DNA of 64,000 nucleotides from Rhodospirillales bacterium 24-66-33 (lineage in GTDB: Bacteria > Pseudomonadota > Alphaproteobacteria > Reyranellales > Reyranellaceae), in contig NCHQ01000004.1 of NCBI GenBank assembly GCA_002281855.1, forward strand, positions 186,001 through 250,000, given 5' to 3'. A program made the position numbers and the translations under genes. Positions 554-62,995 of the stretch are shown here, in pieces. The notes under the pieces are model-generated. The model did no database searches, had not been told where the DNA came from, and saw only the letters and a list, made by a program, of their open reading frames with translations. How positions within the stretch are numbered: position 1 is the first letter of the stretch; every line of letters starts with the position of its first letter.

Positions 554-1807
554 TCACATGGACGCGGCGGCGAGCTTCAGCAGCGTCTCGCGGTCCTGCG
601 TGACGAGTTTCTTGTAGTCGCCGACGATCTTCTCTAGCTCGTCCGACGGCAGCACGCTTTCGAGATCGGTGAAGCCCTGCGGTGCGCGCTGTTCGACGAT
701 GTCGAGCATCACGTCGATTCCCTTGCGCCGGTTGCTCTCGACGATGCGCGCGGTGGGCGGCAGGCGCCGCTCCTCGTAGCGCCGCAGCGCGACCTCGGGA
801 TCGTCGCCCACGGCCAGTTCCTGCGTGATCGCCTCGCCGTCGAGGATCGCCTGCGAGGCGCCGTTGGAGCCGATCGGATACATGGGATGGGCGGCATCGC
901 CCAGCAGCGTGATGCGGCCGTGGCTCCAGCGCGGCAGCGGATCTCGATCGACCATGGGGAATTCCAGGATCGTATGCGCGTTGCGGATGACGTCCGGGAC
1001 GTCGAGCCAGCCGAAATTCCAGTCGGCGAAGCGCGGCAGGAAGTCCTCGAGCCGGCCCCGCTTGTTCCAGTCCTCGCGCGAGGGCAGGGCGCCATCGCCC
1101 ATGTGGAGGTCGCAGATCCAGTTGATGAGCGCTTCGCCGCGTTCGGCGTGGGCGCGGCTGATCGGATAGCAGACGAATTTCTGGTTGTGATGGCCCGCCT
1201 GCACCATGGTGTTGCCGCCGAGATAGGGCTTGCCCACGGTGACGCCGCGCCACATCAGGATGCCCTGCCACTTGGGCGGACCCTCGTTCGGGTAGTAGCG
1301 CGCGCGTACCGCCGAGTGGATGCCGTCGGCCGCGATCAGCAGGTCGGCCGTGGCTTCCTCGACGATCGCCCCGTCGCGGTCGGCGAAGCGGGCCGTCACC
1401 GTGGCGCCGTGCTGCGCGAAATCGGCGATGCGCCGTCCCATCCGGATGCGATCCGCGCCCAGCATTTCCCGCGCCGCATGGACCAGGATCATCTGCAGCT
1501 CGCCGCGATGGATCGAGAATTGCGGCCAGGGCAGGCCGGCATGGCGGCCGCGCGGGTCGGCCCAGATCGTCTGGCCGTGGCGGTTGGCGTAGCGCAGCTC
1601 GCGCGTCTCGATGGCGGTGGCGGCGAGGGCGGGTTCGAGTCCCAGGCCGCACAGGATTCGCACCGCGCCGGCCTGGATGTTGATGCCGACGCCCAGCGGT
1701 CGCATTTCCGATACGGCCTCGTACACCGTCACGTCGTGCCCTGCGCGATGCAGGCACATGGCTGCGGTCAATCCGCCGATTCCGGCGCCGGCAATGATGA
1801 TCTTCAT
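554..1807 (-). CDS. FAD-dependent monooxygenase (UbiH / salicylate hydroxylase-like)
   Basis: This 417-residue group A flavoprotein monooxygenase should hydroxylate an aromatic or similar small substrate using NAD(P)H and O2. It has the N-terminal dinucleotide fold GAGIGG (residues 7-12), a central DG motif (AADGIHSAVR), and the second FAD motif GDAAHPMYPIGSNGASQAI near residue 300. The GSNG variant and overall length resemble proteins annotated as flavin-dependent oxidoreductases rather than UbiH itself. It lies 23 nt downstream of the DUF971 gene on the same strand and may be the last gene of that unit. No clear ribosome-binding site precedes the ATG. The substrate is unknown. Confidence 0.85.
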   Translation of the reverse strand: MKIIIAGAGIGGLTAAMCLHRAGHDVTVYEAVSEMRPLGVGINIQAGAVRILCGLGLEPALAATAIETRELRYANRHGQTIWADPRGRHAGLPWPQFSIHRGELQMILVHAAREMLGADRIRMGRRIADFAQHGATVTARFADRDGAIVEEATADLLIAADGIHSAVRARYYPNEGPPKWQGILMWRGVTVGKPYLGGNTMVQAGHHNQKFVCYPISRAHAERGEALINWICDLHMGDGALPSREDWNKRGRLEDFLPRFADWNFGWLDVPDVIRNAHTILEFPMVDRDPLPRWSHGRITLLGDAAHPMYPIGSNGASQAILDGEAITQELAVGDDPEVALRRYEERRLPPTARIVESNRRKGIDVMLDIVEQRAPQGFTDLESVLPSDELEKIVGDYKKLVTQDRETLLKLAAASM

Positions 1808-1830
1808 GGGGGGGCTCGTTTTTGGTCTCT

Positions 1831-2241
1831 TCAGGTGTCCCGGCTCAGGCCGCGCTGGGCCAGAGCGGCCTCGTAGGTAGCCCAGCGCTCGGCCCGCGTT
1901 TCGCTAAGCTCGCGCAGGTAGGCCCAGCTGTAGATGCCGCTGTCGTGGCGGTCGTCGAATACGATGCGGATCGCGTAGTGGCCGACGGGTTCGACCGAGG
2001 CGATCTTCACATGACGGCGGCCGCCGACGATCTTCTTCTGGTTCGGCCCGTGGCCCTGCACTTCGGCGGAGGGGCTCTCGACCCGCAGATATTCTGCGGG
2101 GAGCGCGCAGGCATGGCCGTCGGAGAAATCGATCTCGAGCCGGCCTTCTTCCTTGAAGACCCGCAGCTCGGTCGGCCACGGCGCAGTGCTGGATTCGTAG
2201 CTGCCGCCGTCGGGCACGGCCTTGGGAAATTCGCCGGTCAT
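1831..2241 (-). CDS. DUF971 / gamma-butyrobetaine hydroxylase-like N-terminal domain protein
   Basis: This 136-residue single-domain protein matches the DUF971 fold ([19 protein letters not shown], then [20 protein letters not shown], and [18 protein letters not shown]). The domain occurs alone in bacteria near Fe-S and ApbC/Mrp genes, and as the N-terminal domain of gamma-butyrobetaine hydroxylases; its stand-alone role is unclear. The ATG at 2241 overlaps the stop of the Trm112-like gene (ATGA), so the two are translationally coupled. A longer in-frame reading upstream is only the shadow of that gene. Confidence 0.85.
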
Positions 2242-2456
2242 GGCACGTCGCGGATCTGGCGCGCCTCGCTCACCAGCATGATCGGGATGCCGTCGCGGAT
2301 CGGGTAGGCGAGCCCCGCCTTGCGGCTGATCAGTTCGCCGGCCGCCGCGTCGTATTCCAGCAGGCCATGCGTGGCGGGGCAAACGAGGATTTCGAGCAGC
2401 TTCGGATCCACGCCGGCACGGCGCGGGGCTGCGGGGTCGTCCGATGGAGGGCTCAT
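2238..2456 (-). CDS. Trm112 / UPF0434 (YcaR-like) family protein
   Basis: This 72-residue protein has the Trm112-like core [19 protein letters not shown], then [21 protein letters not shown]. In eukaryotes Trm112 activates several methyltransferases; bacterial UPF0434 members are small proteins of uncertain role. The family's usual zinc cysteines are mostly absent (only one CP motif is seen), as in many bacterial members. The start at 2456 places the first residues as [11 protein letters not shown]. It is the first gene of a minus-strand unit with DUF971 and probably the monooxygenase. Confidence 0.85.
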
Positions 2457-2561
2457 CGTGCGGTGTTTCCCTAAATTTTGTGCCGCTCTTATAGCACGGC
2501 GGCCGATGCCCACCCTAGTGGGGGCGGTGCGGTCCGAGGCGGGCTTCCTTGCTGCGAGAAA

Positions 2562-2583
2562 ATAGTATAGGGGGGTATACTAT
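2562..2583 (+). promoter_or_regulatory. DmeR/FrmR-class operator fused to the dmeR start site
   Basis: Two perfect 8-bp inverted arms, ATAGTATA (2562-2569) and TATACTAT (2576-2583), flank a run of six G (2570-2575). This is the operator layout known for CsoR/RcnR/FrmR (DUF156) repressors. The right arm includes the A and T of the dmeR ATG at 2582, and the G-run lies where the Shine-Dalgarno sequence would be, so bound repressor would also mask initiation. Confidence 0.85.
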
Positions 2584-2857
2584 GGCTCACCTTCAGAAGA
2601 ACAAGGCCCGGCTGATGGCGCGGGTCCGCCGGATCGCCGGACAGATGGCGGCCATCGAGAAGGCGATCGATCAGGACGCCGACTGCTCCTTGGTCCTGCA
2701 GCAGGTCGCGGGCGCACGCGGCGCGCTCAACGGGCTGATGGGCGAGCTGATCGAGGATCACGTCCGAGAGCATGTCGCGCGGCCGGGGCTCGATGCCACG
2801 GCGCGCGCGGCCGGTGCCGAGGAACTCATCGCCGTCGTTCGCCGCTACGCGAAGTGA
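2582..2857 (+). CDS. dmeR: Ni/Co-sensing transcriptional repressor DmeR (RcnR/CsoR family)
   Basis: This 91-residue all-helical DUF156 repressor has His3, Cys35, His60 and His64 exactly where E. coli RcnR has its nickel/cobalt ligands, which argues against the formaldehyde sensor FrmR and the copper sensor CsoR. It should bind the operator overlapping its own start and release it when Ni(II) or Co(II) binds. I chose the ATG at 2582 because MAHLQKNKARL matches the family start and puts His3 in register; a longer reading from 2549 would bury the operator in coding sequence. It is followed 11 nt later by dmeF, as in rhizobial dmeRF operons. Confidence 0.92.
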   Translation: MAHLQKNKARLMARVRRIAGQMAAIEKAIDQDADCSLVLQQVAGARGALNGLMGELIEDHVREHVARPGLDATARAAGAEELIAVVRRYAK

Positions 2858-2868
2858 AAGGGGTCGAC

Positions 2869-3786
2869 ATGACCACCCGGAACATCGAGCAGCCTTCGCA
2901 CGATCACGTGTTCCTCGGCGAGCGGCACGATGAAAATGCGCGGCGCACGCTCTGGGTCGTCGGGCTGACCGCGCTGATGATGGTGGGCGAGATCGCCGCC
3001 GGCATCGTCTTCAATTCGATGGCCCTGCTGGCCGACGGCTTCCACATGGCGACCCATGCCGGCGCGCTCGCCGTGGCGGCGGGTGCCTATGCCTTCGCCC
3101 GGCGGCATGCGGCCGATCGCCGGTTCAGCTTCGGCACGGGAAAGGTCGGCGACCTCTCGGGGTTCGCGTCGGCGCTGGTCCTGGCTCTGGTCGCTCTGGG
3201 AATCGCCGTCGAGTCGATCGGGCGCCTCTTCGATCCCTCGCCGGTCGCCTTCGGCGAGGCGACCCTCGTCGCCATCGTGGGTCTGGTCGTCAACGTGGCC
3301 AGCGTATTCCTGTTGTCGGGCGGGCACAGCCATGGAAACCACGCCGACGATCATCACGACCATGGACATGACCACGGTCATCACGACAACAATCTCCGCT
3401 CGGCATTTGCGCACGTCGTGGCCGATGCGCTGACCTCCGTCCTGGCGATCGTGGCCCTGGTGGCCGGCCGCTATCTCGGCTGGGTCTGGCTCGATCCCGT
3501 CATGGGCATCGTCGGCGGCATCGTGATCGCCGTCTGGGCATGGAACCTCCTGCGCGACACGGCCGCCGTGCTGCTCGACACGAGCGATCCCCATCTCGAG
3601 GCGGAGGTGCGGGAGCAGGTCGAGGGGCCGGGCGATGCGCGCATAACGGATCTCCACATCTGGCGGATCGGTCCCGGCGCCCATGCCGCGATCGTCAGCG
3701 TCGCCGGCACGGCGAACCGCGCGGCCATTCGCGAACGCCTCGTGCCGGTCCACAAACTCGCGCATGTGACGATCGAAACGCGATGA
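2869..3786 (+). CDS. dmeF: Cation diffusion facilitator DmeF, Co/Ni efflux
   Basis: This 305-residue CDF (SLC30-type) exporter should use the proton gradient to expel cobalt and nickel across the inner membrane. About six membrane segments are visible. The transport-site motifs LLADGFHMATHAG and AFAHVVADALTS carry the Asp/His pairs, and a histidine-rich loop (about residues 152-172, HSHGNHADDHHDHG...) lies between segments 4 and 5. A short cytoplasmic C-terminal domain ends in HVTIETR. The ATG at 2869 follows a GAAAGGGG ribosome-binding site. It forms an operon with dmeR. Confidence 0.92.
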   Translation: MTTRNIEQPSHDHVFLGERHDENARRTLWVVGLTALMMVGEIAAGIVFNSMALLADGFHMATHAGALAVAAGAYAFARRHAADRRFSFGTGKVGDLSGFASALVLALVALGIAVESIGRLFDPSPVAFGEATLVAIVGLVVNVASVFLLSGGHSHGNHADDHHDHGHDHGHHDNNLRSAFAHVVADALTSVLAIVALVAGRYLGWVWLDPVMGIVGGIVIAVWAWNLLRDTAAVLLDTSDPHLEAEVREQVEGPGDARITDLHIWRIGPGAHAAIVSVAGTANRAAIRERLVPVHKLAHVTIETR

Positions 3787-57750: not shown

Positions 57751-58173
57751 TCAGGCCTGGGGCTCTTCCGGCGCCTGCAGATAGCAGCCTTCGATGCGCC
57801 AGGTGCCGTCGGCCTGCCGCGACATCGGATAGAGGGCGGTGACCGGCCGCCCGTCGGGACCGATTACATGGACCTTCTGCGTCACCATCCCCTGCAGGGT
57901 GACGATCTCGCGGAATTCGACGGCGCGCGGCCGGTAGACCGGCCGATAGCCCTGCCGCACCATGTCCATGAACGTGTCCGGAGAGCCGAACATCCCCTGG
58001 ATGCTGGGCGAGGCGTAGCCGAAGGCCGCCGCGCCATCGTCGCGGCGGAAGGCCTCGATCTGGCGCTCGATCACGTCGCGGATGGCGCTCCGGTCGGGCT
58101 CGGAAACCTGAGCCTGCGCCGGCAGCGCCAGGGCCAGGAGTGCGCCGAGAAGGGCGAGGAAACGCAGAACCAT
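57751..58173 (-). CDS. DUF4864 secreted protein
   Basis: This 140-residue protein has a signal peptide (FLALLGALLALALPAQA). The DUF4864 body reads SAIRDVIERQIEAFRRDDGAAAFGYASPSIQGMFGSPDTFMDMV and ends DGTWRIEGCYL, a cystatin/NTF2-like shape. The role is unknown; the family is common in alphaproteobacteria. Confidence 0.85.
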   Translation of the reverse strand: MVLRFLALLGALLALALPAQAQVSEPDRSAIRDVIERQIEAFRRDDGAAAFGYASPSIQGMFGSPDTFMDMVRQGYRPVYRPRAVEFREIVTLQGMVTQKVHVIGPDGRPVTALYPMSRQADGTWRIEGCYLQAPEEPQA

Positions 58174-58404: not shown

Positions 58405-58481
58405 GCGCCCGTAGCTCAACTGGATAGAGCATCTGACTACGAATCAGAAGGCTGGAGGTTCGACTCCTTCCGGGCGCGCCA
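58405..58481 (+). tRNA. tRNA-Arg(ACG)
   Basis: This 77-nt tRNA includes an encoded CCA. The acceptor stem GCGCCCG pairs with CGGGCGC, the D-loop is AGCTCAACTGGATAGAGC, the anticodon stem is TCTGA/TCAGA with loop CTACGAA (anticodon ACG, normally read as ICG), and the T-arm is GGAGGTTCGACTCC. Its 3' end is repeated at 60924-60954, marking it as the attachment site of an integrated islet. Confidence 0.97.
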
Positions 58482-58490
58482 TTTCTCCCT
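58460..58490 (+). repeat. Left attachment repeat (attL) inside tRNA-Arg
   Basis: A 31-bp segment from the T-arm through CCA and ATTTCTCCCT matches 60924-60954 at 29 of 31 positions. The mismatches are at the 7th base (C/G) and the 16th base (C/T). Confidence 0.9.
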
Positions 58491-58811
58491 CAGCCATCCG
58501 TTCCAAGCGGGCCAGTGTTTCGACGCTGCGTTCCGGCTGTGGGCAAGGCGGAGAAGACCGAGCGGGTTGTCTAACATCCTAGGCTAACAGGTTGAATTCC
58601 GTTAGACTCTTTCCTCTTTCTGCTGCTCCTCGGCATCGTGGGCGGTGTTCGGGGCTGCAGGAAACAATAAAAACGCGCCCACTCCAGTCGAGTGCAGCCC
58701 CAGGCCGCCGCCACCCGGTTCGCCCCGAACGTCGTTCGGTCCGGTGATATTCGTATTTTCAGATAGTACCCACTATATATGCGGGAATCCCTGTCGTAGA
58801 ATCTGAATACC
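58482..58811 (+). other. Non-coding left end of the islet with three palindromes and a likely promoter
   Basis: No convincing gene is present. GTCTAAC/GTTAGAC arms lie at 58569-58575 and 58601-58607; a perfect GGGGCTGCA/TGCAGCCCC pair at 58651-58659 and 58693-58701; CCGAAC/GTTCGG at 58725-58739. TATATA (58774-58779) and TAGAAT (58797-58802) are possible -10 elements for the operon, without strong -35 hexamers. The palindromes could be integrase arm sites, operators or a structured leader RNA. Confidence 0.5.
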
Positions 58812-59648
58812 GTGTCCGCCGCCAGCCCCTCTGGACTGCCCAGCTTTGAACGTCCGCCTGTTACGGAAGTCGTTCTCTCATTGCAGTTTGATATGCTCAG
58901 TGAGCTGAAGAACGCTCACATCGGATATCTGTGGTCGCGCTTCAGGGATCGCTATCCCAAAGTTCAAGAGCAACCGTCCCTCGAGCCGTCCTTTGAGACC
59001 TTCGGCACGCCGCCCATGGCGCAGCAGCCGTCATTTAGGTTTGAACAGTTCATCGGCGTGCCGGCGACTCGATATTGGTTTGAGACGGCTGACGACACCG
59101 GACTCTGCCAAGTCCAAAACGATCGGATCATTCACAATTGGCGGAAACGTGAGGGCGACTACCCTCGGTATGAATATGTTCGAGCCGAACTTGAGAAAGA
59201 CCTCAACACCTTCGAGGAGTTTCTGGTCGCAGAAGACCTAGGATCGCTTCGATTCAACCAAATCGAAGTTTCCTACATCAATACTATCGACCTGCCGGGT
59301 ACCGACAACCCGCACGGCGCGGTGGAGCAGGTTATCTCGACTTGGACCCGTCTGGATGGGGTGGGTCGCGATCTGGAGGATATTGCGTTTCGAGCAAGAT
59401 TTCTCATGAGCAAGGACGGTGTTCCCAACGCTCGGTTGCATGTTAGCCTAGCGCCAGCCCTCGAGACGACAACACTGAATCGTGTGGTCAGACTGGACAT
59501 GACTTATCGGGGTAAACCCGAATCAAACGACCGGAGTTCTGCAATGAAGATGCTGGACGAAGGCCGGGCCGCCATCGTCGTAGCATTCGCAGATATGACA
59601 ACCCCCGAAATGCATAATCACTGGGGAAGAACCGATGTTCAGAGATAA
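58812..59648 (+). CDS. TIGR04255-like protein of unknown function
   Basis: This 278-residue protein opens with the TIGR04255 pattern LPSFERPPVTEVVLSLQFDML, continues FRDRYPKVQEQPSLEP and RYWFETADDTGLCQVQNDRIIHNWRK, and has FNQIEVSYINTID in the middle. The family is sporadically distributed and has no known function. No signal peptide or membrane helix is seen. The start is a GTG at 58812 without a clear ribosome-binding site. It overlaps the next gene by 14 nt. Codon use is more A/T-tolerant than in flanking genes, consistent with transfer. Confidence 0.8.
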   Translation: MSAASPSGLPSFERPPVTEVVLSLQFDMLSELKNAHIGYLWSRFRDRYPKVQEQPSLEPSFETFGTPPMAQQPSFRFEQFIGVPATRYWFETADDTGLCQVQNDRIIHNWRKREGDYPRYEYVRAELEKDLNTFEEFLVAEDLGSLRFNQIEVSYINTIDLPGTDNPHGAVEQVISTWTRLDGVGRDLEDIAFRARFLMSKDGVPNARLHVSLAPALETTTLNRVVRLDMTYRGKPESNDRSSAMKMLDEGRAAIVVAFADMTTPEMHNHWGRTDVQR

Positions 59649-60090
59649 TGCCGCGAGAAACGCTACAACCGATGGTTCCAGTGATTTCTCGCAGAGCGCT
59701 TTCGCTAAGTTTCGGGAGGCTCACAGTGCCGCTGTCCAGCCGAAGTGGCAGGCGTCGGTGCTGGCTAAGGTGACGGAGTTGCTAAATCTCCGCCAAGGGT
59801 GGGACGGTTACAATGCGCCGGCCCTAAAGCACGACGCCGCGATGTTTGCGATGGTGATTCTGCAAAACGTCATGAAGCAGAGCACGCCTGAGCCGTCGGT
59901 GGTTCCTTCGTCTACGGGCGGAGTACAGCTGGAATGGCATTTGAATCGCATCGATCTGGAAATCCATGTGCTTGCGCCATACCAGGGCGAGATTTGGTGG
60001 ACCGATCATGCCACTGGCGCTGAGAGTACCGTCTCACTTGGGAAGGACCTCTCAGTCTTGGATGAGCCGATCAAGAGAATGTCACTCTAG
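59635..60090 (+). CDS. Islet protein 2: small uncharacterised protein with WDGY and GGVQLEWH motifs
   Basis: This 151-residue soluble protein has three recognisable parts: a helical N-terminus, the segment LLNLRQGWDGYNAPALKHDA, and a beta-rich C-terminus with VVPSSTGGVQLEWHLNRID and LEIHVLAPYQGEIWW. I recall similar small proteins beside TIGR04255 genes but cannot name a family. It overlaps the upstream gene by 14 nt and precedes the third gene by 14 nt, so all three are likely made together. Confidence 0.7.
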   Translation: MFRDNAARNATTDGSSDFSQSAFAKFREAHSAAVQPKWQASVLAKVTELLNLRQGWDGYNAPALKHDAAMFAMVILQNVMKQSTPEPSVVPSSTGGVQLEWHLNRIDLEIHVLAPYQGEIWWTDHATGAESTVSLGKDLSVLDEPIKRMSL

Positions 60091-60104
60091 GCGCGACAGT
60101 ACCC

Positions 60105-60476
60105 ATGAGCGCAGCGGACGATGGATCGATCAACGACGAATGGTCGTTGCTTAGGCGAGTCCATCCAACGCAAATCGTCCCCAGCGAAGGCGGCGGAGAA
60201 CCGAGGGTCTCGTCAGCGGCTTTCAAAGATGTGTCCATGTCGGTTGATGTCGAAGAGAGTTTGGCCGCCCAAGGCAAAGACTGGAAATTTTCTCTTCAAA
60301 GTCATCCTAGCCACTCGCTTGTAAAGCTGATTGCTGCAATACCGCGTTCACTCAATCAGGCCGTTGTTGCAGTGCCGATTGTTGACAACCCGGCACATGC
60401 TGAGGTGCGGGGCGACAAACCCGGGTCAGTTGCGCGCGCTCTGAGTAAGGCGGCTGCGTGGGTCCATCGCCGGTGA
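60105..60476 (+). CDS. Islet protein 3: small uncharacterised protein
   Basis: This 123-residue protein has INDEWSLLRRVHPTQIVP near the start, SSAAFKDVSMSVDVEESLAAQGKDW in the middle, and IVDNPAHAEVRGDKPGSVARALSKAAAWV at the end. No catalytic motif, signal peptide or membrane helix is obvious. It is the third gene of the islet operon. The conserved-looking blocks suggest a real family, but I do not recognise its function. Confidence 0.68.
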   Translation: MSAADDGSINDEWSLLRRVHPTQIVPSEGGGEPRVSSAAFKDVSMSVDVEESLAAQGKDWKFSLQSHPSHSLVKLIAAIPRSLNQAVVAVPIVDNPAHAEVRGDKPGSVARALSKAAAWVHRR

Positions 60477-60480
60477 CGAA

Positions 60481-60597
60481 GTGACAGAGCGCCTGCCGCA
60501 AAGGGTGCAGGCCAAGCTCGGGCTTGTAGATGGCGGTGCCTGCAAGCTACGCGTCATCATAGAAGCGACCCGCCATCAAAGCCGATGGGGCGGCTGA
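60481..60597 (+). CDS. Possible small ORF at the end of the islet operon
   Basis: A GTG 4 nt after the third gene opens 38 codons (MTERLPQRVQAKLGLVDGGA...). There is no clear ribosome-binding site or family match; it may be a remnant of a longer gene or chance. Confidence 0.2.
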   Translation: MTERLPQRVQAKLGLVDGGACKLRVIIEATRHQSRWGG

Positions 60598-60735
60598 GGA
60601 CTTCGAACACCCCTGCGTTGGAACCCATTCGGTGCGCTTAGGGAGTCTGTGGGTCGATCGTTGCATGCGGTAACTTTACATGGGGCAACCAAGTAGGAGG
60701 CCTAACAGGCCGCCGAAACGTCGAAGGCCTGGCGA

Positions 60736-60771
60736 ACAAACGAAATAAACAAAATAAACGAAACAAACGAA
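60736..60771 (+). repeat. Four tandem 9-bp repeats near attR
   Basis: ACAAACGAA, ATAAACAAA, ATAAACGAA and ACAAACGAA follow one another without spacers. The run is A-rich on the plus strand and lies 153 bp inside the right attachment repeat. Confidence 0.8.
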
Positions 60772-60867
60772 GTAGAGGTCGCACCCCCTGAAACGGGATG
60801 TCCTGCCACTCGATATTGTGCCGCTTCCGATCCGCGCCTCAGGATCTGGTTGATTTCCGGGGTCTTG

Positions 60868-60890
60868 CCTCCCCGAACGGGAGGGTTTTT
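60868..60890 (+). terminator. Intrinsic terminator at the right end of the islet
   Basis: CCTCCC (60868-60873), loop CGAAC-type, GGGAGG (60879-60884), then GTTTTT. It probably closes the islet transcript before attR. Confidence 0.7.
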
Positions 60891-60923
60891 GGGCCTTCCG
60901 GCGCGGCCGCGTTCCCGGGCGGG

Positions 60924-60954
60924 TCGACTGCTTCCGGGTGCGCCATTTCTCCCT
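60924..60954 (+). repeat. Right attachment repeat (attR)
   Basis: This is a 31-bp copy of the tRNA-Arg 3' end and following bases, with two mismatches from 58460-58490. Upstream of it the tRNA is not preserved, so this copy is not a functional gene. Confidence 0.88.
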
Positions 60955-61013
60955 TGTCGAATGGGTGAAGCGGAATACGTTCGATCGCGCGCCGGCGGAG
61001 AGGGCGCTGATCG

Positions 61014-62138
61014 ATGCAAAGGACTTTCGTCAACCTGATGCGCGGAGATCCCGCGCCCCGCTTCACGGCCGCGACGGCGAGCAATCCACGCTACATCTTC
61101 GACACGGTGGCGGGGCGCTACGTCGTGCTCTGCTTCTTCGTGTCGGGCAGCACGCCGGGCGGTGCCGCGGCGCTCGGGGTGGTGGCGGCCAACCGGCACC
61201 GGTTCGACGACGAGCGCCTGTGCTTCTTCGGCGTAACCGTCGACCCGAAGGATCGTGAGAGCGGCCGCGTTCAGCAGAGCCTGCCGGGCGTGCGCCACTT
61301 CTGGGACTTCGACGGCAGCGTCTGCCGTCTCTATGGCGCGGTGCCGCGCGAGACCGGGCCGGACGGGCAGGTTGGTGCGCGGCAGTTCTGGGTGATGCTC
61401 GACCCGACCCTGCGGGTGCTCGAGGTCATTCCGTTCAAGCCGGGCGGGGCGGAGCATGCCGAGCTGTTCGCCCGTCTCGACGCGCTGCCGCCGCCGCACC
61501 TGCATGCCGGCCAGCCCGTGCAGGCGCCGGTGCTGGTGCTGCCCCACGTCTTCGAGCCCGACTTCTGCCGCAGCCTGATCGGCCTGCACGAGGCGGATGG
61601 CGGCCGCGACACCGGCTTCATGAGCGACGTCAGCGGCAAGACCGTCGAGCTGAAAGATCCCGCGCGCAAGCGTCGGCGCGACTTCATCGTCGAGGACGAG
61701 AGCGTCATCCTGGCGGCGCAGCAGCGCATCAGGCGACGGATCGTGCCGGAAATCGCCCGCCTGTACTTCTTCGATGCCACGCGCATCGAGCGCTATCTCG
61801 TCGGCTGCTACACGGCGGAGGAGGGCGGCCACTTCGCGCCCCATCGCGACAACACGACCAGGGGCACCGCGCATCGGCGCTTCGCGGTGTCGATCAACCT
61901 CAACGACGCGTTCGACGGTGGCGAGGTGAGCTTCCCCGAATACGGGCCGCGCGGTTTCAAGCCGCCGGTGGGCGGTGCGGTGGTCTTCTCCTGCTCGCTG
62001 ATGCATGCGGTCTCGGCCGTGTCGCGCGGCCGGCGCTATGCCTTCCTGCCGTTCCTCTACGACGAGGCGGCGGCGAAGATCAGGGTGGCCAACAACCAGT
62101 TCCTCGATCCCTCGGTCGGCGCGTACGAGGGCGGCTGA
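61014..62138 (+). CDS. Redoxin-like domain fused to a 2OG-Fe(II) oxygenase
   Basis: This is a 374-residue two-domain protein. Residues 1-155 have an AhpC/TSA-type thioredoxin fold ([52 protein letters not shown]). The segment [14 protein letters not shown] has no cysteine where a peroxidatic Cys is expected, so it is unlikely to be an active peroxiredoxin. Residues 170-374 form a prolyl-4-hydroxylase-like oxygenase with Fe ligands His277 and Asp279 (APHRDN) and His331, and Arg341 for 2-oxoglutarate. The target is unknown. It begins 60 nt after the islet's right repeat. Confidence 0.83.
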
Positions 62139-62233
62139 CTTCGGACTCGTCGGGACCGGGTCGAGGCTTCTTCGCTGGTGGCATTCGCCGCGCGAGGCTT
62201 GCCGCTGGGCGTGCGGGATTCTACTCCTCTCCC

Positions 62234-62995
62234 ATGGCTTCCCCATCCCGCGTCATCCTCATCACCGGCGCCTCCTCGGGCATCGGCGCCGCAGCCGCCC
62301 GCGCCCTGGCGGCGCCCGATACGGCGATCGCCCTGCATGCTCGGCGCAACCGGGCCGGCCTGGAACGGGTCGCGGGATTCGTCACCGGTGCGGGCGCGCA
62401 GACGCTCCTCCTCGAAGGCGACCTCGGCGAGTCCGGCACGGCGGCGCGCCTCGTCGAGGAGACTGTGACGGCCTTCGGCCATCTCGACGTCATCGTCAGC
62501 AATGCCGGCTTCGCGAACCGCGCGCAGGTGGGCGAGCTCGATCGTGCGGCCTGGGATGCCAGCCAGAATGCGATGACGGCTGCCTTCTTCGAACTGGCGA
62601 CTGCCGCCAAGCCGTGGCTCGTCAAGGCCGGGGCGGCCGGGCGGCTGGTCGGCGTCTCCTCCTTCGTGGCGCATGCCTTCGCCCGCGGTCTCATCACCTT
62701 CCCGGCGTCGGCCGCGGCCAAGGCGGGCATGGAGGCTTTCTCCAAGGCCTTTGCGGTCGATATCGCCGGCTCGGGCGCCACGGTGAACTGTGTGGCGCCG
62801 GGTTTCATCGAAAAGGACCCGGATGCCCATGTCGCCGTGCCGCGTGCCGGGATGGAGAAGGTGGCCCAGTCGATTCCGATGGGCCGTTACGGCAAGCCGG
62901 CGGAAGTGGCGGCCCTGATCGCCTTCCTCTGCTCCCCGGCGGCAAGCTACATCACCGGCCAGACGCTGCACGTGAACGGCGGCGTCACCCTCTAG
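62234..62995 (+). CDS. Short-chain dehydrogenase/reductase
   Basis: This 253-residue SDR has the cofactor motif [15 protein letters not shown] (residues 10-24), NAG in [16 protein letters not shown], and a C-terminal GQTLHVNGG. The usual catalytic YxxxK is replaced: the segment [21 protein letters not shown] keeps the lysine but shows Phe-Pro-Ala-Ser where Tyr is expected, and [10 protein letters not shown] holds the serine. Activity may therefore be altered. Substrate unknown. Confidence 0.82.

Follow-up and report, generated by a model that had tools for sequence, protein, structure and literature searches.

Cis-mobilisable elements (CIMEs) are a class of decayed ICEs and IMEs that accrete at att sites (PMC5704250). 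P4-integrase-type tRNA islands and defence hotspots (e.g. PMC9122126, PMC10121019) hold a small cargo of possible defence genes at a recurrent site. Two described families bear on such cargo. PDC-M32 (PADLOC-DB 2.0.0) is one of the PDC systems, which by status are candidate defence systems, and TIGR04255 is an NCBIfam family of unknown function whose model covers one protein; no mention of TIGR04255 was found in the literature searched. The locus compared with these systems lies in the window (the whole stretch of 64,000 nucleotides that was analysed) from Rhodospirillales bacterium 24-66-33, where a 2.5-kb islet stands behind a tRNA-Arg(ACG) gene. The most plausible reading of the islet is a decayed, CIME-like remnant and not a working satellite.

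The target gene, tRNA-Arg(ACG) (58405-58481, plus strand; ARAGORN, Rfam tRNA 69.2 bits), is intact. Its last 22 nt and the following 9 bp make up the left, attL-like core copy of a 31-bp repeat (58460-58490, plus strand), and the recurrence of these bases at 60924-60954 (plus strand), reported in the preliminary description, is confirmed with 29 of 31 positions identical; the runner-up ungapped match in the 64-kb window reaches 21 of 31. Occurrence of the repeat at many unrelated places had been named as a finding that would speak against an insertion, and a search of the 6.1-Mb genome with 3 mismatches allowed returned exactly two copies. The DNA between the copies (58491-60923) is richer in A/T, as had been claimed, with a GC content of 0.565 (56.5%) vs 0.668 (66.8%) for the whole window, a value as low being reached in just 2 of 308 windows of the same size. 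Low GC begins at the left arm, where the arm-type sites described below stand. Also borne out by ORF calls and domain searches is the presence of three same-strand genes and no integrase; Pfam, NCBIfam and genome integrase searches placed neither an integrase nor a relaxase or transfer gene within 58491-60923, and the 16 tyrosine integrases of the genome all lie elsewhere than in the islet. The flank that follows the tRNA (58482-58515, plus strand) holds the left half of a terminator-like hairpin and resembles, by alignment and BLAST, the flank in the related genomes G028 and G017; the likeness ends near 58515.

The locus was compared across about 25 congeners, which share a gene order of a small gene (57751-58173 in the window), tRNA-Arg(ACG), a variable zone and an SDR gene (62234-62995, plus strand), the latter identified as the conserved right flank of the hotspot by tBLASTn synteny in relatives. 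The SDR gene begins less than 100 bp beyond the tRNA in G023, an ancestral-looking empty locus, and up to 30 kb separate the two genes in other congeners. The variable zone of the window contains an oxygenase gene (61014-62138, plus strand; AhpC/TSA and 2OG-Fe(II) oxygenase by Pfam and synteny), for which no counterpart was detected between the tRNA and SDR genes of G023 or G010. Comparison with relatives places a deletion joint between the oxygenase and SDR genes (62142-62190, plus strand), where, of two genes present in the relatives, all but the 3' end of the second (from about 62190) is gone. In G034, G028, G026, G008, G030 and G035 the variable zone contains partial copies of the tRNA 3' end. 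tRNA-Arg(ACG) is a hotspot with layered integrations.

The right copy of the repeat is an old scar of the tRNA 3' end. It is continuous with the oxygenase gene in G034, where window positions 60704-62141 (segment, scar and oxygenase gene) are matched throughout at 85.4% identity, and in G028 (60738-62138, 86.3% identity); G026 carries segment and scar. In all three genomes the DNA between tRNA and scar differs from that of the window, and the scar therefore predates the species split; being shared with relatives that hold other DNA, it also shows that the two repeats do not bound a single, one-time insertion. A single discrete insertion from 58490 to 60955 was rejected, scar and flank being common to G034, G028 and G026. 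The attL/attR footprint proposed earlier thus stands as the trace of integration at a tRNA site now lacking an integrase, but its two repeats are not the ends of one 2.5-kb unit. The anticipated empty site, joining 58490 directly to 60955, occurs as an exact junction in no relative compared; G023 does offer an empty locus, but one from which the oxygenase gene is absent too.

To the left of the scar lies a segment (60655-60923, plus strand) that is conserved beside tRNA-end scars in G034, G028, G026 and G008 and is found in G030 without a scar directly after it. Part of it (60700-60792) is an intergenic repeat some 90 bp long, dispersed and with AAACGAA-like runs, for which a short-pattern search gave 5 sites, the pattern being too strict to count copies; many copies are present in the window's own genome (G000) and in G008, G026, G028, G030 and G034. 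With a dispersed repeat inside it, the segment found no support as an independently mobile right end. In G028 (locus L055, 6753-6924) and G034 (L054, 1574-1652; both tRNA-oriented), a truncated duplicate of the oxygenase 3' end stands immediately to the left of the conserved segment with its scar, which suggests recombination between direct repeats.

Between the tRNA and ORF1, alignment to G028 locates three putative arm-type integrase sites in direct-direct-inverted order (58569-58607, all on the plus strand), namely GTCTAACA (58569-58576), GGCTAACA (58582-58589) and the inverted CGTTAGAC (58600-58607), separated by 5 and 10 bp. The corresponding arrangement in G028 is GTCTAACG-3-GTCTAACG-10-CGTTAGAC, and it adjoins the 3' end of a 459-aa gene that faces the tRNA. 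The two sets of sites agree at 21 of 24 positions. Over 60 simulations of 64-kb sequences the maximum was 19 of 24, and among 2000 simulated left arms no higher score was seen; the simulation is not fully independent of the discovery, since the motif was first spotted in the window-G028 alignment. Most of 18 control loci score worse than the window on arm sites; the best of them, a terminator hairpin in G023, equals the score of 4 that the window obtains from its second site with the inverted site, and is outscored, by hand count, by the first site with the inverted site. The arm-like sites would bind the integrase, and could also act as a hairpin terminator.

The 459-aa protein of G028 matches the integrase family phrog_1 (E 3.1e-10, over residues 114-445), has no Pfam integrase match and is encoded 130 bp from tRNA-Arg(ACG). 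A broken copy, 64% identical, stands beside the same tRNA in G012, and relatives of this integrase adjoin tRNA-Arg(ACG) or tRNA-Leu(CAA). The left arms beside these integrases carry analogous sites in other letters, direct-direct-inverted in G012, G025 and G011 and as an inverted pair in G027. An inverted pair of arm-like sites without an integrase is found in G014 and G020, the latter with an ORF that by eye resembles the xis-like ORF behind the G012 integrase, and degenerate arm sites accompany a different cargo gene in G035. The G035 islet (L098, 1557-4130) is itself 2.5 kb long and integrase-less; it stands at tRNA-Arg(ACG) and has a 42-46-bp copy of the tRNA end and one large minus-strand ORF that looks protease-like. 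By sequence comparison, the loci of the genus would form a decay series running from an intact integrase (G028) through a broken one (G012) to arms without integrase (G014 and G020), with arms and cargo only in G035 and the window. Such a series at one tRNA suggests that arm sites can outlive their integrase and could serve to match orphan islets with one.

Further islets occupy the same tRNA. In G030, perfect 52-bp tRNA repeats enclose an 870-bp islet (L096, tRNA-oriented 1224-2146) with GGGACCCAC pairs at both ends and a 118-aa Arm-DNA-bind_3 fragment (PF13356, 6.5e-16), the N-terminus of a P4-type integrase. G008 contains an integrase-less islet of 2.4 kb (L095, tRNA-oriented 1025-3446) with HTH, IrrE-type peptidase and DUF4411 genes, and carries a GGGACCCAC pair of the G030 type, 11 bp apart, at its left end only. 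A 5-kb block of three large genes, transporter-like by eye, stands directly behind the tRNA in G017 and, at 94.5% identity, behind the 2.4-kb islet in G008; from this order, G017 resembles an empty site for the G008 islet, or the product of its precise excision. Two integrase types have thus acted at tRNA-Arg(ACG), both leaving islets with a left arm and without an integrase.

The cargo of the window islet is a three-gene operon. ORF1 (58812-59648, plus strand, 278 aa) is a TIGR04255 protein (NCBIfam E 4.1e-24, 85.8 bits against a cut-off of 30) that covers model positions 2-252 of 252, i.e. a full-length member. ORF2 (59635-60090, plus strand, 151 aa) overlaps ORF1 and is similar to the C-terminal domain of the PADLOC candidate PDC-M32A: residues 40-113 match positions 256-329 of the 375-position profile PDLC04575 (E 1.3e-10), and the protein reaches only profile positions 256-350 of 375, short of a full-length M32A. 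ORF3 (60105-60476, plus strand, 123 aa) belongs by family alignment to a PDC-M32B-like family. Taken alone it has no M32B match; members of its family give weak HMM matches to M32B (E 0.01-0.02), and the family aligns with one M32B-like protein at hhalign probability 77 and E 2e-5. An A3-A4 alignment comparison was set aside as circular, L174 being in both. TIGR04255 as the missing N-terminus of PDC-M32A was rejected, as it has no similarity to the N-terminal part of PDC-M32A. A peptide-pattern search of the genome contigs found no relatives of ORF1, no PDB relatives of ORF1 or ORF2 were found, and a single-sequence structure prediction for ORF1 reached a pLDDT of 36 and was set aside.

TIGR04255 is present in 30 of 398 genomes of the phylum, and an ORF2-type gene follows it in about 16 of 33 loci. 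The same three-gene order is found in G046, in G096, on a Mycobacterium paragordonae plasmid and in others. On a Mycobacterium plasmid (L143, NZ_CP025547.1) the operon lies directly behind mobF, near conjugation genes. At 6 of about 35 loci the TIGR04255 gene begins no more than 400 bp downstream of a same-strand tRNA, namely Arg(ACG), Arg(CCG), Arg(CCT), Glu(CTC), Met(CAT) and Ala(GGC), vs 1 of 230 control genes; the chance of 6 in 35 at a rate of 1% is 1.3e-6, a strong but rough figure, as the control is small, one of the six is the window itself and the loci cannot be counted as independent samples. Two intact islands with an integrase carry the operon: a 6.3-kb island at tRNA-Arg(CCT) in G396, with 46-bp tRNA repeats and a tyrosine integrase (PF00589, 1.8e-17), and a 7.5-kb island at the tmRNA in G154 (L248, 752-8631), with a 28-bp repeat and an integrase (9.5e-20). 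The G154 island also holds a 430-aa gene of unknown family and an HTH_17 protein. The operon is perhaps an anti-phage or toxin-antitoxin-type candidate, carried by tRNA-integrating elements and outliving them. A bolder proposal is that TIGR04255 and its two partners form an unrecognised anti-phage system, a tRNA-anchored cassette that was cargo of integrase-bearing elements as in G396 and G154, then persisted as integrase-less copies behind many tRNAs and can be re-mobilised by incoming integrases through the att features it kept; this proposal is, in our judgement, unlikely. The three-gene operon, which occurs in several classes, on a Mycobacterium plasmid and time and again downstream of tRNA genes, offers a specific candidate for defence assays.

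The islet is probably what decay has left of an integrative element that inserted into the layered hotspot, at the 3' end of tRNA-Arg(ACG). Several unrelated elements would have inserted successively at this 3' end, the newest through a divergent tyrosine integrase whose family persists beside this tRNA in G028 and, as a broken copy, in G012. This newest element would have kept its attL core and left arm sites and lost its integrase and its own right arm. What is left would now be joined to the scar that an earlier insertion made (60655-60954), with the operon of TIGR04255, PDC-M32A-C-terminal-like and PDC-M32B-like proteins as surviving cargo. No piece of an integrase gene was found in the islet, which tells against this account, in which the integrase would have been lost in the lineage of the window. 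Nor could the right-hand junction of the newest insertion be pinpointed, 58500-60917 being free of tRNA-end copies. A chance match or a common intergenic repeat, as another account of the 31-bp repeat, was rejected and carries practically no weight: part of the adjoining segment (60700-60792) is indeed a dispersed repeat, but the core has only its two copies genome-wide, and equivalent tRNA-end scars stand at the same locus in six relatives.

It is also conceivable, though unlikely, that the operon entered the variable zone by homologous or illegitimate recombination and that the arm-like sites and the repeat are unrelated leftovers. A scar older than the species split would be compatible with such an origin, as would G070, where the operon lies amid housekeeping genes with no tRNA nearby. 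The arm sites nevertheless stand between tRNA and operon as they do in the G028 element, the low GC starts there, and the operon is enriched directly behind tRNAs and is present in intact integrase-bearing islands. The two options of the preliminary description, a satellite moving on another element's integrase or a decayed island, were the correct pair, and decay is the better supported of them. Active mobilisation in trans is less likely than decay, because the arm sites are on the left only, the genome has no homologue of the G028 integrase and there is no third copy of the core; the helper integrase with a matching core that had been expected in the genome was accordingly not found. At the right end, neither matching arm sites nor an exact GTCTAAC was detected, whereas a small integrase-bearing element in G027 has arm sites at both ends. 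A satellite-like or cis-mobilisable hitch-hiker, with usable att sites and moving when a related integrase enters the cell, is therefore quite improbable. Such a hitch-hiker would account for a core still identical at 29 of 31 positions next to intact left arm sites, for the left arm sites of the G030 P4-type integrase remnant kept by the integrase-less G008 islet, and for TIGR04255 operons behind tRNA-Glu, tRNA-Met, tRNA-Arg(CCG) and tRNA-Ala with no integrase nearby, but these other copies have no detectable second tRNA end, and the right core in the window is the old shared scar.

Against P4-integrase-type islands, the islet differs in that its matching integrase is a divergent tyrosine recombinase without a Pfam match; a P4-type fragment lies at the same tRNA in G030. 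Its operon resembles PDC-M32 in that ORF2 is like the C-terminal domain of PDC-M32A and, more tentatively, the third-gene family like PDC-M32B, in the same order; it differs in being without the N-terminal part of M32A and in having TIGR04255, which PDC-M32 lacks, as a separate first gene. Compared with the one-protein TIGR04255 model, of which ORF1 is a full-length member well above the cut-off, the protein here heads a conserved three-gene operon enriched behind tRNAs. The likeness to CIMEs lies in tRNA-end repeats, retained att features, absence of integration and transfer genes, and tandem layering at one site. On the left, the islet retains an attL in its core repeat and three arm-type sites, and between the repeats the integration and transfer genes are gone. 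On the right, a core is present at 60924-60954, but this core is an older shared scar and a right arm was not found, a point in which the islet would differ from a CIME; no transfer genes were seen. Origin from an ICE or IME and the capacity to be mobilised in cis once accreted are part of the CIME definition, and the islet is likened to the class by its sequence features. Read in this way, the islet itself would be a decayed element of a known sort, and its importance lies in the decay series and in the operon to which it points.
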